From contig WBVU01000003.1 in NCBI GenBank assembly GCA_009192285.1, forward strand, positions 2,139,973-2,203,972: 64,000 nt of DNA. Reading direction: 5' to 3'. The notes beneath the pieces were generated by a model. It saw only the letters and a list, made by a program, of their open reading frames with translations, was not told where the DNA came from and made no database searches. Source of the stretch: Morchella semilibera (Eukaryota; Ascomycota; Pezizomycetes; Pezizales; Morchellaceae). This document shows positions 33,226 through 61,176 of this stretch, one piece after another (position 1 is the first letter of the stretch; the number at the start of each line of letters is the position of its first letter). Position numbers and translations under genes: made by a program.

Positions 33226-35484
33226 GTTTCCAACAGCACAAGTATCTTGCCCTGTTTTAGACACGCTCTCGAGTATTTCACGGCACCCTAGTGTAAACAA
33301 CACAATGTCCTTGTAGAAATTGTATTTTTGCAAAACATACCGCACCTAGTGGGGTCCATGAGCTGAGCCAGCCTGAACATTGGGCTCGAGCCACTAGAGC
33401 CCTTTCCCTCCAGGCTCGAGATTAGGCCCGAGCTCAAACTAAGTACTCGCAATTTCATTGCGTTTTTGAACACGACTTAAATATTGCATACACACAAAAA
33501 ACCGCCAAGACTACATTTTTAATAGGGGTTGTGTTCAGAAACGCTATGAAGATGCGAGTATTGTACTCTAGGTGATCGGTTACTTTTGTAACCCTACAAA
33601 ACCTTTCGCTGGACCTAAGGGGATGTGGGGGCGGTGAGGTGGAGATTTGTGGGCTGCCAAGGACATTGGGATCTATCACCGATCTAACCGCTTTCCCCAA
33701 TGAAAATGACTATAGCTGCTACCTGGTATAAGGAAATCTTGTTTTTATAATCCTCGACCACCAGCTCAAGCCATTTTAGAGTCTTCACCTAAGGTTCGAG
33801 CTCTGTGAGCCTATTCCCCCAAGAGGCGGGCCAGCTCGAGCCAGCCCATTGACCACGCGCTGTCCGTACCGGATACTTGTACCACGGTGCGAGTCAGTCA
33901 GTCCAATTAGTAGCCGGAAGAAAAGAGTACGGTTGACTGGGAATGACCTTAAAAATTGCCCCATACAATTAAATAATAAACAAAAAAACACCAACTTTTA
34001 CTCGGTAGTAAACCTAACCCTAACTCCATGAACCTCGTTGTTGCGGATGGATCTGATAATCTAATCTGCCTGTCTCTTGGGTAATGATTGGTTGAAATGT
34101 GCATGTGTTGCGGACGCCTGCCGATATATGCTCTTTTGTGCCTAGACCTATCAGTGATATTAAGGTAGCCAAATAATTGCCTAATCGGGTATTTACACCG
34201 CCCAACGCTCTAGAACTATTGCGACATTCATGATGTAGAGCGGAGGCTAAAGCATCATTTAACAGAGAGAGAATAATTGTAGGTGTTGTGGTTGGAAAGC
34301 CATCACCCCGCAAATGTTGGGGTCAAATGTCCCATAACCGCTGACTGGTCATGCTGCACCCTGTTTTTCCATCGTTCCGGTCGCTGGGACGCGGGCCGCC
34401 CCGGCCCGCAGCACGGCCATGGATTTGAGTTGTGGCGGGTTGCCAAGAATCGCGGCTCCTCGGTAAGCTTCATCCGCACTCCAACTTCTCCGCTTCAACA
34501 TCCACCCGACGGAATATTATGGACTTTTGCGCGCAGTTCAATGGGAGAGTAAACACGATTTGGCCGACAGACAGAAGGCAGGAAACAGACATCAGGTCTC
34601 TGTGAGTACTGTAGCCCCTGGATACCCGTTTTTTCTCGGCCATTCTGTTCAAGCCCAGATGCACACCCCGAGGCATAGATGGCTCTCTTGTTCGAGGCTG
34701 GTGCCTCCTATGCACACGCGGACCTTCCCGCCCATCCGGCGCAAAGCGCGATAAGAGAGCCGCCGCAAAGGGATCCCAGGTAACATCCGTGCCCTTCACT
34801 GCCTGAGGCTAGCCTAATATCTGACCAAAGTATTCCTACACCTCCGGATAAACATCAAGATCATTTCCAGCCGGCCAGAGATCGAGATCCTTAAAGACCA
34901 CCGCTCCAACAAAGACTCGGCCAATCTCACAACACGCAAGGGTCCCCCCCCCCAATTACTTCACCGTTGGCGACGATAAACGGCTATTTGACGATGGGGG
35001 GGATGAGAAAAGGACTGGCGGCGCGCTGGGGCAGGGGGGTCAGGCCGTGATATGCCCATCAACCTCCACCCCCGATTTAGGCTAGCTGGGGACCATATAC
35101 CGGCGTACATTAGGGATAGTTACTGGAGGTAAGACAGCTCGTGAGGTCTTAAATACCACCAGAACCCCCCCTCCCGATGCCGCCCGCTCCGTTCCACCCC
35201 CGGCCCCCCCGATGCCACCCCCGATTCCGTCTCTGACTTCTTTTGCAATGTCCCCTCCCGGGTTATACCGAGAACCAGAAATGTCCTTTCTTATATCTTT
35301 TGCAGCGCCGGTTCGCCCGGTATGCCAAAGCCACAGAGCTTAATATAGCAATTATCAATAGCATAATTGATAAGATTTGGACTGCTCAATCGCATTACCC
35401 GGTTCAACCCCCATCCAAACCGCGAGCCGCTTTCATTTTTAATTTTTGAGTATAATGTGTTTACTAAATTAAGATATATATACG
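33226..35484. other. No gene recognised
   Basis: Intergenic. GGCTCGAGC-type palindromic words recur at about 33384-33440 and 33790-33845. A single CCTAACCCTAACT tract is at about 34012-34024. GC content rises after 34350. None of the frames has a recognisable domain. Confidence 0.4.
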
Positions 35485-37073: not shown

Positions 37074-40000
37074 TTAATACAGGGCGGGAGTTGGAGAAAT
37101 ACCGGTTGAATGACTTCTTTTCCTCCTGGACCCTTCCCCGGGGTACTGTTCAGCAGTTTCATTGATACAAGGCCCCCCGTCAATTGTCGACTCTTCAACC
37201 ACTAGATTTGCCATCATGAGCCACTGGAACGGGCTACAGCACACGATGCATCCATCACTCAGTGCACTGGTAATATTGACGCCCCATCCCCGGTTTATAG
37301 CAAAATCTAATGGTGTTGCTAGGTAGCTGTCATAGACGTGTATGTTGGCACTGGCAACCCGCAGCAGGGTTATAATCGTGAGACAGCCGTTCTGCGCAGC
37401 CAGGTGCAATAAGCTCACTTGATTATTGTCAACAGCGTTTACATCTGCACCCGCAGCAATCAGTATCCGGACCCCATTGTCCCAGCTGGAATCGATCAAA
37501 TGCTTGAGTGGAGTGTTTCCCTCGATGTCCCTAGCGTTTACATCTGCACCCTTCTCTGCTAAAAGTTTTATCTTCTTATCCGCGTCTTTGGATCCCTTAT
37601 CCAGCACTGCGTAGTGTAGAGGTACTCTTCCGTTGCCATCGCGAGCGTGTATATCGGCACCGGCCTCTAAGAGCAGGGCTAGGATCTCTTTGCTATGCCT
37701 CCGCGCAGCCAGGTGTAATACCCCTTTTTGATCATTGTCGACAGCGTTTACGTCGGCGCCTACGGAAATCAACTCCTTGGCCAATCCCAAATTCCTCGAC
37801 TCCCACCAATACTCAAGTCGCTCGCTCGGCTCCATACCCAACAGATACTGAAGTGGCGTGTTTCCATTGATGTCCTTGGCGTTCACATTTGCACCCCTGC
37901 TTTTCAGGTCTCTGATCGTTGATTCGGAGCCGTACTCTCGGCCGGCCACGCAGTGGTGGAGCGGGGTTCTTTGATTGGAGTCGGGTGCGTTTACGTAGAC
38001 CCCGGCATCTAGGAGTAAGTTCACCATCCGATTGTGACTTCCCCGCGCGGCCCAGTGCAAGAAGCTCACTTGATTATTGTCAACGGCATTTGCATCGGCA
38101 CCCGCAGCAATCAGTATCCGGACCCCATTGTCCCAGCCGGAATCGATCAAGTGCTTGAGTGGGGTGTTTCCCTCGATGTCCCTAGCGTTTACATCTGCAC
38201 CCTTCTCTACTAAGAGTTTTATCTTCTCATCCGCGTCTTTGGATCCCTTGTCCAGCACTGCGTAGTGTAGAGGTACTCTTCCGTTGCCATCGCGAGCGTG
38301 TATATTGGCACCGGCCCTCAGGAGTAGGGCCACCGTCGTACGGCTACTTCCCCGCGCGGCCCAGTGCAATAAGCTCACTTGATTATTGTCAACAGCGTTT
38401 GCATCGGCATCCGCAGCAATCAGTATCCGGACCTCATTGTCCCAGCAGGAATCGATCAAGTGCTTGAGTGGGGTGTTTCCCTCGATGTCCCTATCGTTTA
38501 CCTCTGCGCCCTTCTCTACTAAAAGTTTTATCTTCTCATCCGCCTCTTTGGATCCCTTATCCAGCACTGCGTAGTGTAGAGGTACTCTTCCGTTGCCATC
38601 GCGAGCGTGTATATCGGCACCGGCCTCTAAGAGCAGGGCTAGGATCTCTTTGCTATGCCTCCGCGCAGCCAGGTGTAATACCCCTTTTTGATCATTGTCG
38701 ACAGCGTTTACGTCGGCGCCTACGGAAATCAACTCCTTGGCCAATCTCAACTTGCTCAGCTTCCTAAAAGACCAATATCCAGGTGGCTCGCCCCACTCCA
38801 TACCCAACAGATACTGAAGTGGCGTGTTTCCATTGATGTCCTTGGCGTTCACATTTGCACCCCTGCTTTTCAAGTTTCTGATCGTTGATCCGGAGCCGTA
38901 CTCTCGGCCGGCCACGCAGTGGTGGAGCGGGGTTCTTTGATTGGAGTCGGGTGCGTTTACGTAGACCCCGGCATCTAGGAGTAGGTCCACCATCCAATTG
39001 TGACTTCTCCCCGCGGCCCAGTGCAAGAAGCTCACTTGATTATCGTAGACAGGGCCCACGTTGGCCCCCGCCTCGATCGATATCTTTACCGAGCTATGGT
39101 AACGGCTAGGAATCAGGAACCGTAGTGGGGTATTTCCATTTTTATCCCTGGAGTCTGCTGAGGCTCCCGCTTTCAACAAGAGGAGAATCACGTCGCCATT
39201 TTCGTTGCCTTTCTCAGCTGCGTGGTGTAGCGGTGTTCTTTGGTGAATATCACGTGCGTCAACGTCCAAACCCTTCTCTATGAGAGCCGATAACGCCCCC
39301 GATCCACCTGATGCTACAGCATGATGCATTGCTGACATTTGGTCGTTATCTCGTGCTTGCAAGTCCGCCCCATTTTCTAGCAGCAGGTTTACCAGGCCCG
39401 CAAAACCCCACCCTGCTGCCGTGTGAAGCGGTGTCACTCCGCGCCTGATTCGCTGATTTACGTCCACTCCGGCTTTTATCAAGAGACGCATATCCTTTAC
39501 AGCTCTCTCCTCCGCCCAACACCTCCACTCCCGCCATGCGGTAAACGCCGAATCCCCGTAAATGTCTATTACATTAGGGTCAGCGCCCCGCTCAAGCAGT
39601 ATGGCAACAGCGTCGTCTGCCGCAGAGTGTAGGGGTGTCCTGTGATCTATATCCCGTATATCGATTGGTAAACCTTCCTCGATGAGCAGTGATACTGCGG
39701 CCGCACTTCCGGACGCGGCGGCGTAGTGCAATGGAGACGCCTGCGTATCGTCCAGGATATTTATGTTCGCATCCGCATAGCACAGGGGGGTGCGGCCGGC
39801 CCGGTTCCGCGGATCGACAGCACCAGCCCGTTCATGCACCTCCGGCGCCCGAATGCCGCGACCGTGACCAGGCTCTTTCCCCGTCGATAATCTTTTGTCT
39901 CTCCCAAAGTTCAGAAGGAGCCGGAGGAAATCCGTGTGGCCCCACTCTGCCGCTACGTGCAGCGGTGTCTTCCCCTCCCAATCCTGTGCGTCCACTAGTC

Positions 40001-47575: not shown

Positions 47576-48790
47576 GAGAGCGCAGTAGAGATATATCTCT
47601 GCCCACAACCCTAACCCTTATTCTGCTGAGAGTTTTTGATCATCTGATTTTATTCGCGCATGCCAGAAAGAGCCTGATCGAGCTTTATTCAGCCATAATT
47701 AGGCACCGAATGTCAACATTATCGCCCAAACAGGCCAAAATACGGCTTATCCTATATATAAAGCATATATCAAGCTCCTATCAGCTCTAGGTCTACAAAA
47801 CAGGCTGATATCCTTATACGGACCGGCGGTAATGTAGGTATACTTAATCATTTTCAGATCCTCAGTGACAGGCTTGATGGCCTTGATAGTCCAGCGATAC
47901 CGATCGACTAGACCCCTTCCTCAACTCTTTCTCGGCAATGCGGGGAGCCGATAAGTGACGCGTCTTCGCGAACTTCATCCACGCAGGCGTCATCGCCAAT
48001 CCAGCCATTGCCAGGATGATCTCGACTAGATTATCGACCTAAAAATCGAAAACGTCCGCGGGTGGTTCTCGCTACCGGAGCTTGGAGAACTTCGCTCGTG
48101 GCTACCGCCCACTCCGGGGTCGATCGGTGCTTTGCCTATGCTCGTCACCAGTATGAAAAGGTAAGTGTCTGGACCTAACTAACCCTAACTAACCCTAAAA
48201 GGGATCCAGCCAGAGTTACCGCGAGGGATGGTAGGGTCCAATATCTGGAGCATGATCTTGGACCACTGTCTGGACGACCTTGATAACTTTAACCGAGATT
48301 GCGTCGAAGGTTGGGTGTCCGGGGCGGAGGTTTGGTGGCTTTTTCTTGGAGGGGGATTGAGTTGCAGGTGCAGGAGTCAAAAAAGCTTAATTCTGAGAGT
48401 CGAACAAGCATGTTTTCAAGGAAGACTATGCAATCTCCAGGCGCGATTAGGAAGCATACCCAGGCTAGTACATCTAGGCGCTCAGCGCTGATTAGCCGTC
48501 ACCTCAAGGAGAACCTGCGCGCGGATCCTATCTCGCTTATCGTAAATTAGCCAAAATATGACAGGTCGCTTTTGGTGCAGGAAGCTGGTGGGAGATTAGG
48601 CGCCAAACACACCAGGCGTTTTAGGCGCGCCATGATGTAAAGTTCGCGAGGGGGCAGGGCCCATACCGACGAGTCATCACAGCACCCCCTCATCTCTGCC
48701 TCGACCGCCTTCAACCCTCACCACCACCAACACCAACACCACCACCACACCATACTCCTTCTGCTTCCTTTCATACGTCTCGCTAGATCG
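47576..48790. other. Mostly non-coding; possible exon relics
   Basis: A potential splice pair at 48161-48201 (GTAAGT donor, CTAAC branch, AAAAG acceptor) is made of CTAACTAACCCTAA telomere-like repeats. The flanking frames do not give a convincing protein, so I list it only as a possible gene relic. A segment at 48540-48650 has words like those of the Tc1 relics (CAGGTCGCTTTTGG). Confidence 0.25.
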
Positions 48791-53639: not shown

Positions 53640-54490
53640 CCCATACAGCGCCCACGCCCACGCCCACACCAACACCCACACACACGCCAAGGTCATCATG
53701 CTACGATAGTCCCAGGAGGTGCCACCTTCGCCAGAGTCATCGGACGACGGTATTAGTAGGAGGCGCCGGCCCTCCCAAAGTCGCCGCCTGTGCCTGGAGG
53801 TGCCTCCGACGATACTACTGACTATGCCGCCATGGACACGCTCAAAATCACTCCATCGACACGCCCAAGTCAACACCATGGACACGGCTATAGCGAAGCC
53901 TAGGACATACACGCCCAATCACTCCACCGACAAGCCGAAATCAACAACATGGACATGCCTATAATGACATGTAGGAGACTCCGTGGACCGTGGACACCCC
54001 CAAAATAACGCCCAGGATACGCCCAAATCCACGGTTAGGACATACTTAAAGTAAAGTCTATAAAATACCATGTACCTTTAAAAGACTCTATGGACACGGC
54101 CAAATCAACAGCATGGACACGCCTATAATGACGCATAGGATAAGGAATGGATACGCCTAAATCGAGACCATGCACACGGCTAAAATGACGCCTAGGACAC
54201 GCTCAAATTGACGCCTAGGATATGCCCGAATCGACGCTATGGACACGCCTAAATCGACACCTACGGCCTGCCTTGGATAGGCCCAGAATGACGACTAGAG
54301 CACACCCGAATCGGCGCCATAGACGGACATACCTAGATCAACGCTATGGACACGCCCAAAATAATGCCTAGGATACTCCCAAATCCACGGCTAGATACAG
54401 ATACCCAGATCAACGCCATGGACACGGCCAAAATGACGCCTAGGACACGCTCAAATCAATACCTAGGATATGCCATTGACATTCCCAAAG
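53640..54490 (+). repeat. Degenerate minisatellite of GGACACGCC-type units
   Basis: About 850 bp of variants of ATGGACACGCC, CCTAGGACACGC and AAATCGACGCC words at irregular spacing of roughly 25-40 bp. No coding frame. It ends directly at a TTAGTTAGGGTTAG tract. Confidence 0.75.
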
Positions 54491-54504
54491 TTAGTTAGGG
54501 TTAG
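54491..54504 (+). repeat. Telomere-like spacer 1
   Basis: TTAGTTAGGGTTAG joined directly to TGATCAAG, the antisense of the 3' end of the retroelement copy that follows. Confidence 0.85.
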
Positions 54505-54954
54505 TGATCAAGCTGTATTTGTTTTAGGGTACAAATAGCAAACCACAGCTAGGGAAAGCCTAGGCACATGACTACAACTATAACCGCAGGTACAAAAATG
54601 AAACCCCATCCACCCCTAGGAGAGCTCAACCCAAAATTCGAAGGCACAACCCTCAAAGCCGAGTCTTACAACACCCAAGAAAGAAGACAAGAACAACACC
54701 AAGCACGGGTCCTATGCATGCCATCACCCTTATAACAGCAATCCATGCGAGGGAGGAAGAGCCCCTACCCGAACCAACAGCTCAACCCAAGTCAGAGGCA
54801 CAACCCCCTAAGTCGAGTCTAACAAATCAATCCAGCAAAGACCAAAACCCAACAGCCCAATCCATAACGAGGCACAACCCCGAGACCAGGACTAACAACA
54901 GGTACATCCTCCAAAGAAAAAAGAAGCCAAAGAAACCGGATAACCCCACAAAGA
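54505..54954 (-). mobile_element. LINE-like element copy 3 (3' end only)
   Basis: Positions 54505-54925 match 56879-57299 without a difference that I can see, so this is a recent copy of the 3' region of element 1. It is 5'-truncated near 54926-54954, where it meets the next telomere-like tract. No RT remains. Confidence 0.85.
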
Positions 54955-54973
54955 TAGGGTTAGTTAGGGTTAG
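54955..54973 (+). repeat. Telomere-like spacer 2
   Basis: TAGGGTTAGTTAGGGTTAG joined to TGATCAAG at the 3' end of element copy 2. Confidence 0.85.
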
Positions 54974-56860
54974 TGATCAAGTTTATTAACTATCTACTCA
55001 AGCTAAGGAGAATCCCAGGAGCCCCGATCAAACTACCACATTCCTCAAGCCCCCAACACCGCCTTTCCGGATCAGTGCAGGAAGATCAGAAGGGAGGACA
55101 CAAGAGACCCACAACTAGAAACCCATGCGAGGGAGGAGAGCCCCCACCCGAAACCGCAGCCCAACCCATAAACAGAGACGCAATCCCCGAGTCGGGTCTA
55201 ACCAACAGCACAGCAAGGACCAAAACACTTCCAGAAACCTCAACAGCCCAGCCACAAAGAGGCGCAACCCCCAGACCAGGACTAACCAGAAGCACAGAAG
55301 CGACACCTCCAGAAAACCACACACAACAAAAGCGAAAGGAGGCATGACAAAACGCATACCTCAAGCCAGGACAGGAGATGGGATACCCCACCACCCAGCC
55401 CCAACTTAGCGGCCCCAGACCTACCACAAACCACCCCAAAGTAAACCGCCAACCATATATAGACCAGCGGAAACAATCGATGGAAAAAAAGGAAAAAGGA
55501 ACACATGATAGAGACAAAAGTAAGATAAGGAGCGGAGATATACGATCAAAAGAAACAAAAAAAACAAAAGAAAGAACTCGATAATCATTATCCTCCATAC
55601 CCTCCCAGTCCCCCGTCCACCATCAACAATCTTTCAGCCTCCTCCGCCCTGAACGCATCAGCAAGGCATTTATTCCAATCAGTCAATATCCGGTAGGCCC
55701 TATCGTGAGCCTTGATGTTCAACAAGTAATCGATAACTGTATACTTGGTGTCGGGAGGGTGGAACAGTCGATCAAACTCCATCATAGCCCTCTCCTCATC
55801 GTTCAATACATGCTCCAGAGCCATACATCTAGTGTGACCCCTATCCCACCTCTCACCACAGAGACATTTCCGACCAAAACAGTAAAGACCCCTCCTCCAA
55901 TCCCATAGCATAGTCTGCATACCAGGATCAGATATACCTACAAGTCATACAATCAAAAATCAGTCAACAGAAAAAAAAAAAAAAAACATCGACAGAGCAT
56001 AAGGTGTGTATATTAAATTAAAAGAGATTAATATAAAAAGAAAATCACATGCAAGAGTCAACCTCGTATCACCCGGTATGCCATACCAGTTGAACCAAAA
56101 AGGGAAGTGAGCTGTCAGAAGAGGAGAAAAAGGTATTGGAGTACTTCGTATCACTTGGTATGCCATACCAGTTGAACCAAAAAGGGAAGTCGAACGTTAA
56201 ATGAGGGTGAGAAGGGGATTGGGGTGTGGGGGGGGGGAGGAGAGGAGGGGTGGAGGGAAGGGCAGTAACAAAACACTGAATCATAACATACCAAGTACCG
56301 CAACAGCATCCAAACCCTTCAGTCTGGCATCAGGTTCAACAATATAAGACAGAGTTCCAGCAATCCCACGTTCCCTATCGCAAATAGTCACCGCCTTCCT
56401 CCAATAGATAAAGTCATCCAGCTTGGCCTTCAACCCTTGACCATGAAATCGATACCGTTGAGAGAGGAAGAGGCTATACATGTCATCCCTCCGCAGATAC
56501 CAAGCCATCATCGTGGATAGTTTCCGCAAAGTTACATCCCTCGCCAACACCTTTCCCTTCAAACCATCAAGTATCCGACGTAGAGGGTTATCGGCATGCA
56601 TGGAATCGATATGATGTTGGAACCTGCAGCGGAGATGCCTCATCCTATCCTTCACCTCGAGGACACCACACAGGTTACCAGCCAATCGAGCCCGCTTGGA
56701 GGTACCACCAGCCACCCATATCATGCATCTCTTCCAAGCATCCTCAAGCGGTGCAAGCAATCGCCTCCTCCTATCACGCCCACACGTAGCCACACTCCCA
56801 GAACGTACCCAAGGTTCAAACAGCGGTAGACCATACTCCATGACCGGACGTATAAAGAGC
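54974..56860 (-). mobile_element. LINE-like element copy 2 (truncated RT C-terminus)
   Basis: On the minus strand it starts abruptly inside the RT thumb region (VMEYGLPLFEPWVRSG, about 56841) and runs through a basic segment to AVAVL (56292). A 354-nt intron follows (55938-56291, GTATGT...TTGTAG), then GISDPGMQ, a CCHC-type zinc finger (CLCGERWDRGHTRC) and a stop near 55588. The remaining 600 bp is a 3' untranslated region. It shares the intron position and protein layout of copy 1 but is clearly diverged. The intron holds two copies of a GGTATGCCATACCAGTTG repeat. Confidence 0.85.
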
Positions 56861-56878
56861 TTAGTTAGTTAGGGTTAG
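56861..56878 (+). repeat. Telomere-like spacer 3
   Basis: TTAGTTAGTTAGGGTTAG joined to TGATCAAG at the 3' end of element copy 1 and to the truncated 5' end of copy 2 on the other side. Confidence 0.85.
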
Positions 56879-59800
56879 TGATCAAGCTGTATTTGTTTTA
56901 GGGTACAAATAGCAAACCACAGCTAGGGAAAGCCTAGGCACATGACTACAACTATAACCGCAGGTACAAAAATGAAACCCCATCCACCCCTAGGAGAGCT
57001 CAACCCAAAATTCGAAGGCACAACCCTCAAAGCCGAGTCTTACAACACCCAAGAAAGAAGACAAGAACAACACCAAGCACGGGTCCTATGCATGCCATCA
57101 CCCTTATAACAGCAATCCATGCGAGGGAGGAAGAGCCCCTACCCGAACCAACAGCTCAACCCAAGTCAGAGGCACAACCCCCTAAGTCGAGTCTAACAAA
57201 TCAATCCAGCAAAGACCAAAACCCAACAGCCCAATCCATAACGAGGCACAACCCCGAGACCAGGACTAACAACAGGTACATCCTCCAAAGAAAAAAGAAA
57301 CAGGGAGAACCAAGTAACCTCACGGAGGAGGAAACTGAGAAACCCAAATCTCTAGCGGCCCCAGACCTCCACTCCACCCCACCGTTCCAGTCTTAAGGCA
57401 GGAACAGTCGATGGGAAAATAAATAAGAAACAAGACATAGGAAAAATAATAAAATGAGTGATAGATATGAGATAATAGAAACAGCAATAAATCAATAACG
57501 AAATAGTATTTCCGTATCCTTCGAACCCAAGTAAACATATCGTATCTATCAATCTCAACCACCAAACTCATCCATCAACCGTCGTACCTCGTCCTCTTGG
57601 AATGCTGTTGCAAGGCGTTTGTTCCAATCGGTCAATATCCTGTACGCTCTATCATGCGCCTTGATGTTAAGCAGGTAATCAATGACGGTGTACTTGGTAT
57701 CCGGTGGGTGGAAAAGCCTATCAAACTCCATCATCTCCTTCTCCTCATCATTCAACACCAAGTCCAGATCCATACATCGGACATGACCCCTATCAAACCT
57801 CTCACCGCACAGACATTTCCTGCCCCAACAGTAGATTCCTCGCCTCCAATCCCAGAGCATTCTCTGCATGGTCGGATCAGATATACCTGTAACAGTAGAA
57901 AAAGGGTGGAGATGAGAAGGCAATATCAGCCATCAATCCATTGAAGGGGGAGGAGGAGCGAAAACCTAAACATGAATATTCGACATAGAAATCCATGCGG
58001 TCCACCAAGACATTAATGTCTAGGTGGACCATCAACTCAAACAAGGCAAAAGGGGGAAGGAGGGTTGGAGGGGGAGGTGGAGGGGAGGGGGGGGGGAAAG
58101 CCTAAACATAGATATTCGACATAGAAATCCATGCGGTCCACCAAGACATTAATGTCTAGGTGGACCATCAACTCAAACAAGGCAAAGGGGGAGGAGGGTT
58201 GGAGGGGGAGGTGGAGGGGAGGTGGGGGGGAATCATAGATGGGTGGGGGGTGGGGGGTGGGGGGTGTGGGGTTAGACCAACCAAGAACGGCAACCGCATC
58301 CAGTCCAGTCAACCTGGCCTCCGGCTCAACAATGGCACTCAAGGTTATAGTCTTCATATCCCTCTCACATACGGTCACAGTCTTCCTCCAAGCCAAAAAG
58401 GAAATCATCTTGTCCTTCAATTCCTTGCCATCAAATAGGTCTCGCTGCTCCAGGAAGGAGGAATACATCCGGTCCTCCAGTAGGTGACCAGCAAGGAGGC
58501 CATCGCATTCCCTGCATCGTCGTTTTTCCCCCCCCCCTACCCGGCGTGTCGACGACCTCGAAAGGGTGGACCTTCCATGACCCCTAGCAAGTCCAGAGTA
58601 GGAAGAGGAGGAGGAGGAGGAGGAGGAGGAGGAACAAATACCATCCAGGATCAGTCTCATCGGGTTGTCACTGTACATGGTTTCCAGGTGGTGTTGAAAT
58701 CCACACCTCAAGTGCTCCATCCGTCTCCGCATATCCAGCACCCCACAGAGATTTCCAAACAAGCAAGGTCTATTGGAGCAACCACCAGCAATCCATATCA
58801 TGCACTCCTTCCAGGCAACCTCCAACGGTACAAGGAACCTGCGGGCTCCAGCACGGCCACCACCACCACCACCACCGGATCGGACCCAAGGATCAACAAG
58901 AGCCAGACCATACTCCATGACCGGTCTTATGAATATCTTGAACATGTTCAGCCTGACCCTAGGAGTCCAAGTATCGGAGCTGAACTGGAGGAAACCCTTG
59001 ACACCCATCGCCTTCGCCACCATCCGGTCACGATGCGCCTCAAAGTCAATACCATCCCTATCGACCGGAAATCCCAGATAGCGATAGGAGTCAACAACCG
59101 GAAGAGGTAGATCATATAGGGTCAGAGGAGCATGTCCAATCCTACCCATCGACTCGCTGGCAACAATCCCGCACTTGGCCACCTTGAATCGCATATCATG
59201 GTCTTCGGCCCACCGCTCACAAATGGACAGGAGAGCAGAGGCATGAGACCAATCACGGCACATGAGAACCCCATCATCAGCATAGAACAAGGCCGACGGT
59301 AAACAAGAACCAGAATCAAGAAGCCGAGGTGGTGAAGGGTAGTCCAAATCGGATGAGTCGAGATCAAGTTCAGTATCCGTATCAATCTCAAAGTCAGAGC
59401 TATATCCAATATATTCAGGGATCTCAACTGAATGAGATTAGAATCAGATCAAATCACAGTAATCGTTAGCAAAGGAACATGAAACACGGATATCAAGTTA
59501 TGGTAATAACTAATGGGCAGCAAATCGGAGGAACTCACACTCAGAATCAATCTCGCAGTCAGAACCAACGATAAGATTATCCTCTGAATCAGAAAGCCCA
59601 CAGTAGTATCCTCTTCCTTCACCAGCGGAAGTAGTAATCAATCTCATTGAGCGTCTCAAACCAACGCTACTAACTGAATAGGGAAGATCAATAGAATGTC
59701 AGCAAACCCAATCAAAAATAGGAGCAACTCGAGTGAAGCAGTAACGTTCCAACATACCTGATTCAGACCCTGCACTTTGCTTCATTACCGGAGTGGGTAT

Positions 59801-61033
59801 CGGATCGGGGAGAATCGGAGTGGCAGAACCAGAGGAGTCGTCCATGTCCGTATCCATATCAATGGATTTGGCAAGGGAGTCGGCATCACCATCATCATCG
59901 GAAGCAGTATCAGGTAACAGGGTAGGACCCAACCGATTCAGAGCACGTAGAAGAGAATCCACAAACTTATTAAAGATGGCAGGTGATAGAGGCGAGCCTT
60001 GAGGTACCCCCACATTCCTATTCAGCGACTCCGAGGTATGACCATTGACAACCAATCGATAGGACATTGAACTGAACATCAACCGAACCACCAAGGCAAT
60101 CAGTATCTCAGGCATGCCCTGTTTCTCCAACTCACCCACAAGCTTCACCTCGGAGACCATATCGTAAGCCGCTTCAAGATCGAGGAACACAGCAATCGGA
60201 ATCGTACCAGTCGATAGCCCATGGTTGAGGGTAGCAGCATGTGTCAAGGTCGAGTAGCCACTCCTGAAACCAGCCTGACCACCATCAAGGACATTGTAGG
60301 GGTATCCAGGATCTTCAAACGCGGGAAGGATCATACCCTCGAAGATTCGACGGAACATCACAAGGATTGCGATGGGCCTAGTATTGGACGCGGTGTAAGG
60401 CTTCGAAGTATCCTTGTGGATCGGAAACAGTAGTGACCTGTTCCATCGCTGCGGTGTGCAACCAAACCGGACACAAGTCTGAAACAGTAGCGCAAGCTCT
60501 TCAACGAAGGAGGTGCCAAGTAGTGCTTTCATCTGCAATGCATGTATGCCATCCTCACCGCACGCTTTGCTGGTTGGTACCTTCCCAATGTAGTCGCCAA
60601 CTCTCTTCTCAGATACAAGGGATAGAAGCAGGCGAACAGTTTCATCCTCTTCACGGCAGAAGGCGGGGGTCTCAACATGCTGCTGCTGCCCATCAACAGA
60701 AACACCACGTTCGGCATCAATCGAATGATCGTTAGGCACGGCAGGGTGAGTCCCATCGGATCGAGTGGAGTTGTAAACCTTTTCGTACTTAGTCTTGCAT
60801 TCCTCCATAGGGGTGTCGTCGCCGCTGTCTGATATGATGGTACTGCCGTTTAGGGACGATCTCTGGATTCGTTTGAAGAGACCGATCGCTGAAGTGGTAT
60901 CGGTTTCAGACCCAAGGGAATTGGCCCGCCTATCCGGACCTTCCCTCTCTTTCAATGGCCTGACAATACCTAGTACATGTTCGGAGACGGCTTGCAACTT
61001 GGCTACCAACAGAGCATCGAGCAGGTCGACATC
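56879..61033 (-). mobile_element. LINE-like element copy 1 with RT domain, three introns
   Basis: Exons 61033-59758, 59673-59539, 59427-58282 and 57886-57555 join in phase (introns of 84, 111 and 395 nt, GT-AG) to about 960 residues. RT motifs: SKACGEDGIHA, LLFPIHKD...NTRPIAIL, GFRSGYST, FLDLEAAYD (catalytic Asp), VGVPQGSPLSP and, after an acidic insertion of roughly 130 residues, ALFYADDG (catalytic Asp pair), then a YLGFPVD block. A CCHC-type finger (CLCGERFDRGHVRC) follows. No endonuclease domain is visible in what remains. The 5' end is truncated: the open frame runs into the CTAACCC array. The 3' region, about 670 bp, ends TTGATCA at a telomere-like tract. The last intron carries a duplicated 90-bp segment. 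Confidence 0.88.
59428..59757 (-). other. Acidic RT insertion region with two introns
   Basis: Intron 59674-59757 (GTATGT...TTCAG) and intron 59428-59538 (GTGAGT...TTCAG) flank a 45-codon exon. Together with neighbouring codons they encode a Ser/Asp/Glu-rich insertion between RT motifs B and C. Confidence 0.8.
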
Positions 61034-61175
61034 AGTTAGGGTTAGTTAGGGTTAGTTAGGGTTAGTTAGGGTTAGTTAGGGTTAGTTAGGGTTAGTTAGG
61101 GTTAGTTAGGGTTAGTTAGGGTTAGTTAGGGTTAGTTAGGGTTAGGGTTAGTTAGGGTTAGTTAGGGTTAGTTAG
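61034..61175 (+). repeat. Telomere-like array, 10-bp unit TTAGGGTTAG
   Basis: About 14 copies of a 10-bp unit that alternates TTAGGG with TTAG, with one place (61141-61150) where two full hexamers adjoin. The G-rich strand runs toward higher coordinates, the direction expected for a chromosome end on the right. Confidence 0.92.
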
Positions 61176-61176
61176 N
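61176..61176. other. Single undetermined base at a sequence junction
   Basis: The only N of the window, exactly where the telomere-like array stops. It may mark a joined contig edge. Confidence 0.9.

Follow-up and report, generated by a model that had tools for sequence, protein, structure and literature searches.

An intron-bearing LINE stacked on telomere repeats at a probable chromosome end of Morchella semilibera

Retrotransposons that occupy chromosome ends have been described in fungi, insects and rotifers. The fungal examples MoTeR (Pyricularia/Magnaporthe) and FoTeR (Fusarium oxysporum) are telomeric non-long-terminal-repeat (non-LTR) retrotransposons of which numerous copies are truncated and whose 3′ ends adjoin short tracts of telomere repeats, the tracts of FoTeR comprising ∼3–7 repeats (PMC7367193, PMC8381367, PMC12857005). 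MoTeR is further described as forming tandem arrays with interstitial telomeres in a host that has telomerase, and as having left internal relics. SART and TRAS of Bombyx (R1 clade) are long interspersed nuclear elements (LINEs) that target telomere repeats and coexist with repeats of the telomerase type, and Athena-type Penelope-like elements are telomere-associated in rotifers (PMC10088271, PMC7265360). Here, we describe an array of three LINE-like copies in a stretch of 64,000 nucleotides from the morel Morchella semilibera (the window, C19:2139973-2203972 of 5569516, i.e., contig-internal), which shares these features of MoTeR and FoTeR and which, in our view, probably represents a chromosome end occupied by a telomere-specialized LINE. 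Our literature search, which covered few subscription papers, found no report of such an element, nor of the 10-mer on which its copies are stacked as a telomere repeat.

The array and the telomere repeat of the genome

The three copies lie head-to-tail at window positions 54505-61034 in a common orientation, their sense strand being the minus strand. All are 5′-truncated, with lengths of 456, 1889, and 4156 nt from the common 3′ end. As noted in a preliminary description made from the letters alone, each copy is truncated at a different point, and each 3′ end is fused without poly(A) to the same TTAGGGTTAG/TGATCAAG junction (54504/54505, 54973/54974, and 56878/56879). On the plus strand, GTTAGGGTTAG stands directly before the element 3′ ends at 54505, 54974, and 56879, and the fusion base is identical. 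The abutment of the longest copy on a telomere-like array also stands, as the outermost copy meets, at position 61034, an (TTAGGGTTAG)n array of 142 bp that extends to 61175. The picture of three retroelement copies has to be refined: the 3′ end is indeed the same, but there are two subfamilies in the order A, B, A, with copies 1 and 3 being A-like and copy 2 belonging to family B, and A and B are only ∼75–80% alike where they can be aligned. Copy 2 is 95% identical to a long B copy on contig C23. The minisatellite at the base of the array resembles (81.5% over 130 bp) DNA that lies 0.7-0.85 kb from the left end of C14. A chance telomere-like motif is ruled out, as TTAGGGTTAG has 20 sites in the window versus 0.13 expected. 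Two short interstitial telomere-like tracts without any element (25 and 10 bp) are found at window 48174-48198 and 34014-34023.

The 10-mer TTAGGGTTAG (TTAGTTAGGG) is the telomere of this genome. In the assembly examined (56.76 Mb, 23 contigs, C1–C23), (TTAGGGTTAG)n is present at 21 of 34 contig ends examined, namely 13/22 left ends, 4/8 right ends, and the right ends of C1–C4, and the terminal tracts that were measured (n = 17) comprise 70-251 bp. Among the 13 examined ends without it, five stop inside the element (C15 at both ends, C16, and C21 and C22 at the left). A chitin synthase (PF01644) is also encoded, which points to a probable fungal host. The genome also encodes a TERT RNA-binding domain on C11 (PF12009, 168 bits), and this domain together with the telomere repeats at 21/34 ends indicates that the element does not replace telomerase. 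This differs from HeT-A, TART, and TAHRE of Drosophila, which do replace telomerase and which are likewise LINEs added to chromosome ends. Stacking and truncation are known from these elements as well.

The telomere array of the window is directly followed by a single N. Among the matches listed, five other long internal telomere arrays were read, and all five end at an N or an N run (three on C1, one on C2, and one on C22). From the single N and these five arrays, we conclude that position 61175 probably marks a real chromosome terminus and that C19 probably is a chain of several chromosomes; the scaffolds more generally appear to link entire chromosomes. Near 714 kb of the same contig, an outward-facing copy adjoins an N run. 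Four shorter imperfect internal tracts of ∼40–60 bp (one on C1, two on C3, and one on C4; L040-L043) have no N at their ends.

Table 1. Features of the array and related sites, in window coordinates unless a contig or locus is named.
Feature	Position	Strand	Basis or remark
Subtelomeric minisatellite, ~23 bp unit, array base	53830..54490	.	TRF
Telomeric stub TTAGTTAGGGTTAG	54491..54504	+	sequence; exact telomere run 15 nt
Copy 1, A-like, 456 nt, 5′-truncated, 3′ end at 54505	54505..54960	-	
Telomeric spacer, overlapping assigned end of copy 1	54955..54973	+	exact run 19 nt
Copy 2, family B, 1889 nt, 5′-truncated	54974..56862	-	intron 55938-56291; last exon from 55937 down
Telomeric spacer TTAGTTAGTTAGGGTTAG	56861..56878	+	exact run 15 nt
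Copy 3, family A, 4156 nt, 5′-truncated within ORF2	56879..61034	-	
Last exon of copy 3, C-x-C...RGHxxC motif	57555..57886	-	
Predicted intron 3, 395 bp	57887..58281	-	contains 136-bp tandem duplication 57960-58232
Exon 3, FYADD box near 59293	58282..59427	-	RVT_1 1.2e-5, 25.5 bits, below Pfam cut-off 29.6
Predicted intron 2 (GTGAGT...CAG), 111 bp	59428..59538	-	
Exon 2	59539..59673	-	
Predicted intron 1 (GTATGT...CAG), 84 bp	59674..59757	-	
ORF2 exon, N-terminal RT part (RVT_1)	59758..61034	-	Pfam RVT_1 1.1e-15; open frame; splice bounds
Terminal telomere array (TTAGGGTTAG)n, 142 bp	61034..61175	+	TRF; contig ends capped by same repeat
Single N right after telomere array, probable assembly join	61176	.	
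Long internal telomere arrays ending at N	C1:1462k, 4005k, 5770k; C2:4063.7k; C22:1663k		
Further sites of the GGTATGCCATACCA..TTGAACCA.AAAGGGAAGT motif	L065:2083-2125, 2491-2534; L034:5880-5990		

Copies and junctions across the genome

The preliminary description had proposed that the array is built on telomere-like ends, and the genome-wide distribution agrees with this. We pooled 41 copies with a 3′ end from two genome searches (37 + 42 rows), from which 8/37 rows were dropped as cross-matches to family-B copies and 30/42 rows as cross-matches to subfamilies A and C or as rows without 3′ end; the dropped rows include pieces of family B (C16:1.02 Mb, C12/C13:1.56 Mb, C11:1.99 Mb, C14:1.23 Mb, and C21/C22:0.56 Mb). 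As the searches scored the best candidates only, all copy counts are lower bounds. Of the 41 copies, 22 are situated in the outermost 3 kb of contigs, a zone that makes up 0.24% of the assembly, and they are spread over 16 of the 46 ends. The corresponding p value of 7e-47 presumes independent copies, a condition that array members and paired contigs violate. The tests include the near-duplicate places L045/L046 (an inverted pair) and L048/L051 (paired contigs), and array members were counted singly. A further copy, on C17, lies 3.4 kb from the contig end. For comparison, none of 57 other reverse transcriptase (RT) loci lies ≤3 kb from an end (Fisher p 5.5e-11 vs the element). The orientation is that predicted, i.e., outward, in 28 of 29 copies within 60 kb of a contig end, the exception being C11:2004752. 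The contig pairs C9/C10, C12/C13, and C21/C22 are near-identical in the stretches compared, and two haplotypes may therefore be partly represented in the assembly.

Head-to-tail arrays are also found on C1 (subfamily order C-A), C5 (B-B), C6 (B-C-A), C15 (A-A), and C22 (C-A). Copy lengths range from 13 nt to >7 kb, the former being a "copy" TGATCAAGCTGTA between telomeric tracts at the right end of C7. Terminal copies run directly into telomere in the window and on C1, C4, C6, C12, and C17, as well as on C22, where a gap follows, and this telomere on truncated 5′ ends is in line with the early suggestion that the repeats are added after the cDNA. At four loci (L015:1445, L030:369, L031:411, and L033:529), 5′ ends pass without a telomeric spacer into similar subtelomeric sequence starting with TATA, which is possibly a second end-associated repeat.

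At the 3′ side, most copies in the assembly share the junction seen in the window: all 29 A/C-type rows of the first search reach it, and neither unrelated 3′ flanks nor poly(A) were seen in them. Exact telomere runs, each ≥11 nt long and ending with GGGTTAG, precede the element in 36 of 40 3′ junctions, and the remaining four carry substitutions in the tract. In a few copies (e.g., L012 and L053), an imperfect telomere tract continues slightly beyond the exact run. Poly(A) is absent in 40/40 junctions, which sets the element apart from the insect elements SART and TRAS with their 3′ poly(A). TGATCAAG plus the telomeric stub are common to the subfamilies A, B, and C.

An APE-type LINE with introns

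Judged from its predicted proteins, the element is an APE-type LINE, thus a non-LTR retrotransposon, with two open reading frames (ORFs) and introns. The RT had initially been left without a match to known telomere elements; it is broadly placeable as that of an APE-type LINE, not of a REL-bearing (MoTeR/CRE) or Penelope-like element. Removal of the three predicted GT-AG introns from the A copy of the window yields 965 codons that are open to the stop, the first three of which come from the telomere side of the joint. The last intron has an identical position in A and B, and family B has in its linker a GTGAGT...CAG stretch that matches predicted intron 2. Three segments compared between A and B gave dN/dS ratios of 0.125, 0.145, and 0.055 at dS values of 1.8-2.4, which are near saturation, and these low ratios suggest that the RT protein has been used under purifying selection. 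A short motif, GGTATGCCATACCA..TTGAACCA.AAAGGGAAGT, is found in the B intron (window 56064-56106 and 56146-56190) and upstream of the long B copy.

On C23, the ORF2 of the long B copy encodes, besides the RT, an APE-like domain at its N-terminus (GYINVRG, AETWY, LGDINTRF, TDH, TDH). A profile of 53 relatives aligns to positions 13-775 of L1 ORF2p (8sxt) with a mean alignment accuracy of 0.69, and the catalytic N, E, D-N, and DH are in register by eye. Pfam endonuclease models did not match the APE-like domain of C23, and an endonuclease-only profile built from four sequences gave 0 matches against the PDB. The best solved relatives of the RT are R2 and L1 ORF2p. When the best 8000 candidates were scored, 62 proteins (P0001-P0003, P0006-P0064) formed one group that is 37–59% identical to P0001 and is separated by score from the next ten, and A and B branch as its sister lineage in the topology of an RT tree that holds unnamed relatives only. 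Relatives were found in none of 31 stretches from viral_contigs; 9 of 26 stretches from genome_contigs match with 22–33% identity in the RT and neighboring region only.

Two known classes could be rejected. The published fungal telomeric LINEs that we found (MoTeR, FoTeR, and Cnl1 kin) are grouped with CRE and carry a C-terminal REL endonuclease, whereas the Morchella element combines two ORFs and introns with an APE-like domain at the N-terminus, and the telomere unit comprises 10 bp. We searched for the REL signature (CCHC followed by RHD/N and R/KPD-type motifs), and the spliced C-terminus has neither the RHD after the Cys-His motif nor the RAD, as compared by eye with the MoTeR1 motif; membership in CRE is thereby rejected. 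Penelope-like elements can hold introns as well and are defined by a TERT-like RT and an endonuclease that is absent or of the GIY-YIG type. A Penelope-like element (Athena/Coprina) is ruled out, as the RT matches R2 and L1 and an APE-like domain is present. SART and TRAS share with the element the insertion in telomere repeats and an endonuclease of the APE type.

How the array may have formed

The reading that we favor and consider probable is that of a chromosome end at which a telomere-specialized LINE is copied by RT onto the G-strand 3′ end, truncated, and capped by telomerase. The element's own RT would copy the element RNA onto a G-strand 3′ end reading ...GTTAGGGTTAG, and cDNA synthesis would begin without poly(A) at the RNA's own 3′ end, which is expected at ...CTTGATCA(CTAACCC). 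An early stop of copying would leave a 5′-truncated cDNA as the new chromosome end, telomerase would add repeats onto it, and the short telomere tract could then be primed again to stack the next copy outward, a repetition that would build arrays. We infer for this process an RNA intermediate, priming on an end or on a telomere nick, and telomerase instead of some other route for the capping. Of 14 joints, terminal or inside arrays, at which a 5′ truncation is followed by telomere, 10 overlap by 1-3 nt, with 0.44 expected for each under even base use (p 0.035); this lends weak support to telomerase priming on the cDNA end. The longest copy of the window is outside these 14 joints, as there is no longer copy for comparison. 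By analogy, the element may work like MoTeR and FoTeR and, by strand logic, like TRAS.

A possible alternative, to which we give clearly less than even chances, is site-specific target-primed reverse transcription within telomere repeats as in SART and TRAS, in which the APE would place a nick in the G strand 3′ of GGGTTAG without loss of the distal telomere. The catalytic APE residues, which appear conserved in the alignment, the single fixed register, and an insertion strand identical to that of TRAS would fit such a mechanism. However, the insertions are not spread over the telomere. All 36 unsubstituted stubs are ≤37 nt long, whereas uniform insertion into the terminal tracts of 70-251 bp would place 35% at ≤40 nt (p 3e-17), and 24/36 are ≤18 nt versus 16% expected (p 8e-12); these tests left out the four of 40 junctions with substitutions, and copies are not fully independent. 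The objection is weakened by the MoTeR case, as breakage may remove long internal tracts and three interstitial repeats are described as sufficient to promote breaks (PMC7367193). By this analogy, the stubs could be short through survivorship.

Several observations weigh against our favored reading. The acceptor side of the last intron is kept in every one of the 12 fetched copies (10 A and 2 B) that extend to it, which is unusual for RNA-mediated copying, and no spliced joint of this intron occurs among the fetched loci. ORF1 and the endonuclease were found at one locus only (C23:193000-200900; L034, L065), which is B-type and lies ∼200 kb inside the contig, and no endonuclease-bearing copy of family A was found in the assembly; perhaps full-length A relatives are hidden in unassembled ends, or A copies were moved in trans. 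Within the window, copies 1 and 3 are 100% identical over 421 nt (54505-54925 and 56879-57299) and then diverge abruptly, a pattern in the sequence that points to gene conversion, recombination, or a shared source. Furthermore, 12 of the 41 copies are internal, at >60 kb from any contig end, and gaps adjoin only a part of them (three in the window, one by the N run of C19, six on C22 of which one immediately precedes an N, C20:3.98 Mb, and C23:0.2 Mb), and several copies have non-telomeric subtelomeric sequence at their 5′ ends (e.g., L015, L030, L031, L008, and L053-L055). In MoTeRs, truncation and array growth are also ascribed to erosion and break-induced replication (PMC7367193, PMC8381367).

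Some recombination is suggested by the retention of introns, by the presence of only one long copy, and by the 421 nt that copies 1 and 3 have in common, and all three, like the documentation in MoTeR arrays, would be expected if recombination were the main process. Break-induced replication from the telomeric stub would then spread the copies, the truncations would result from erosion healed by telomerase, and there would be little or no current retrotransposition. We regard this as somewhat unlikely. Copied arrays would share truncations and spacers, but the truncation points differ between ends, the near-identical contig pairs and the inverted pair of C22 excepted; moreover, ORF2 has been under purifying selection between the subfamilies, and the 3′ end is kept in every A/C row.

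Less likely is an explanation in which the stub of 10-15 nt is a C-rich tail of the element RNA that anneals to any exposed end, the element itself thereby healing broken chromosomes. The minimum exact stub of 11 nt, the 24/36 stubs of 11-16 nt, and the sharing of TGATCAAG plus stub by A, B, and C would agree with this, but 12/36 stubs comprise 19-37 nt and exceed one fixed tail. Nor do we accept that the shortness of the stubs proves an RNA tail, since breakage of long interstitial tracts is described for MoTeRs and the FoTeR tracts are short as well. A further argument comes from homologous empty subtelomeres (C16, C20, C5, C6, and C19), five sites chosen because homology reached the stub, with an uncertain boundary in the case of C20 (86% identity). 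The homology ends abruptly at the stub, telomere sequence is present at none of the five breaks, and 1-2 nt overlaps are seen by eye at three of them. The abrupt end and the telomere-free sites suggest that these copies sit at subtelomere breaks or eroded points, and such ancestral sites would suit an annealing RNA tail, but telomerase healing before insertion accounts for the same sites. In its most far-reaching form, the idea would make the LINE a natural chromosome-healing system, with a telomere-complementary RNA tail CTAACCCTAAC, an RT acting like a telomerase with a long template, stub and cDNA sealing the ends, telomerase capping them, and the RNA remaining unspliced; this we consider quite unlikely.

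An assembly artefact or one segmental duplication is very improbable: the single N at 61176 and the further N stretches or joins of C19 and C22 would be compatible with it, but many separate contig ends show this structure with differing flanks, truncations, and subfamily order, and a simple segmental duplication including the spacers, as considered in the preliminary description, is ruled out by the two subfamilies and the different truncations. As a separate observation, the window contains a 309-bp tandem repeat at 38037-38625 (1.9 copies, 95% matches).

In summary, the Morchella element is, by its sequence features, an APE-type, two-ORF, intron-bearing LINE in a MoTeR-like niche, with a similar array anatomy and beside telomerase. 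Convergence on chromosome ends thereby becomes testable, and the element offers a system for asking what fixes short telomeric stubs, be it the endonuclease, the structure of the end, or survivorship. It also raises the question of how a retrotransposon retains introns.

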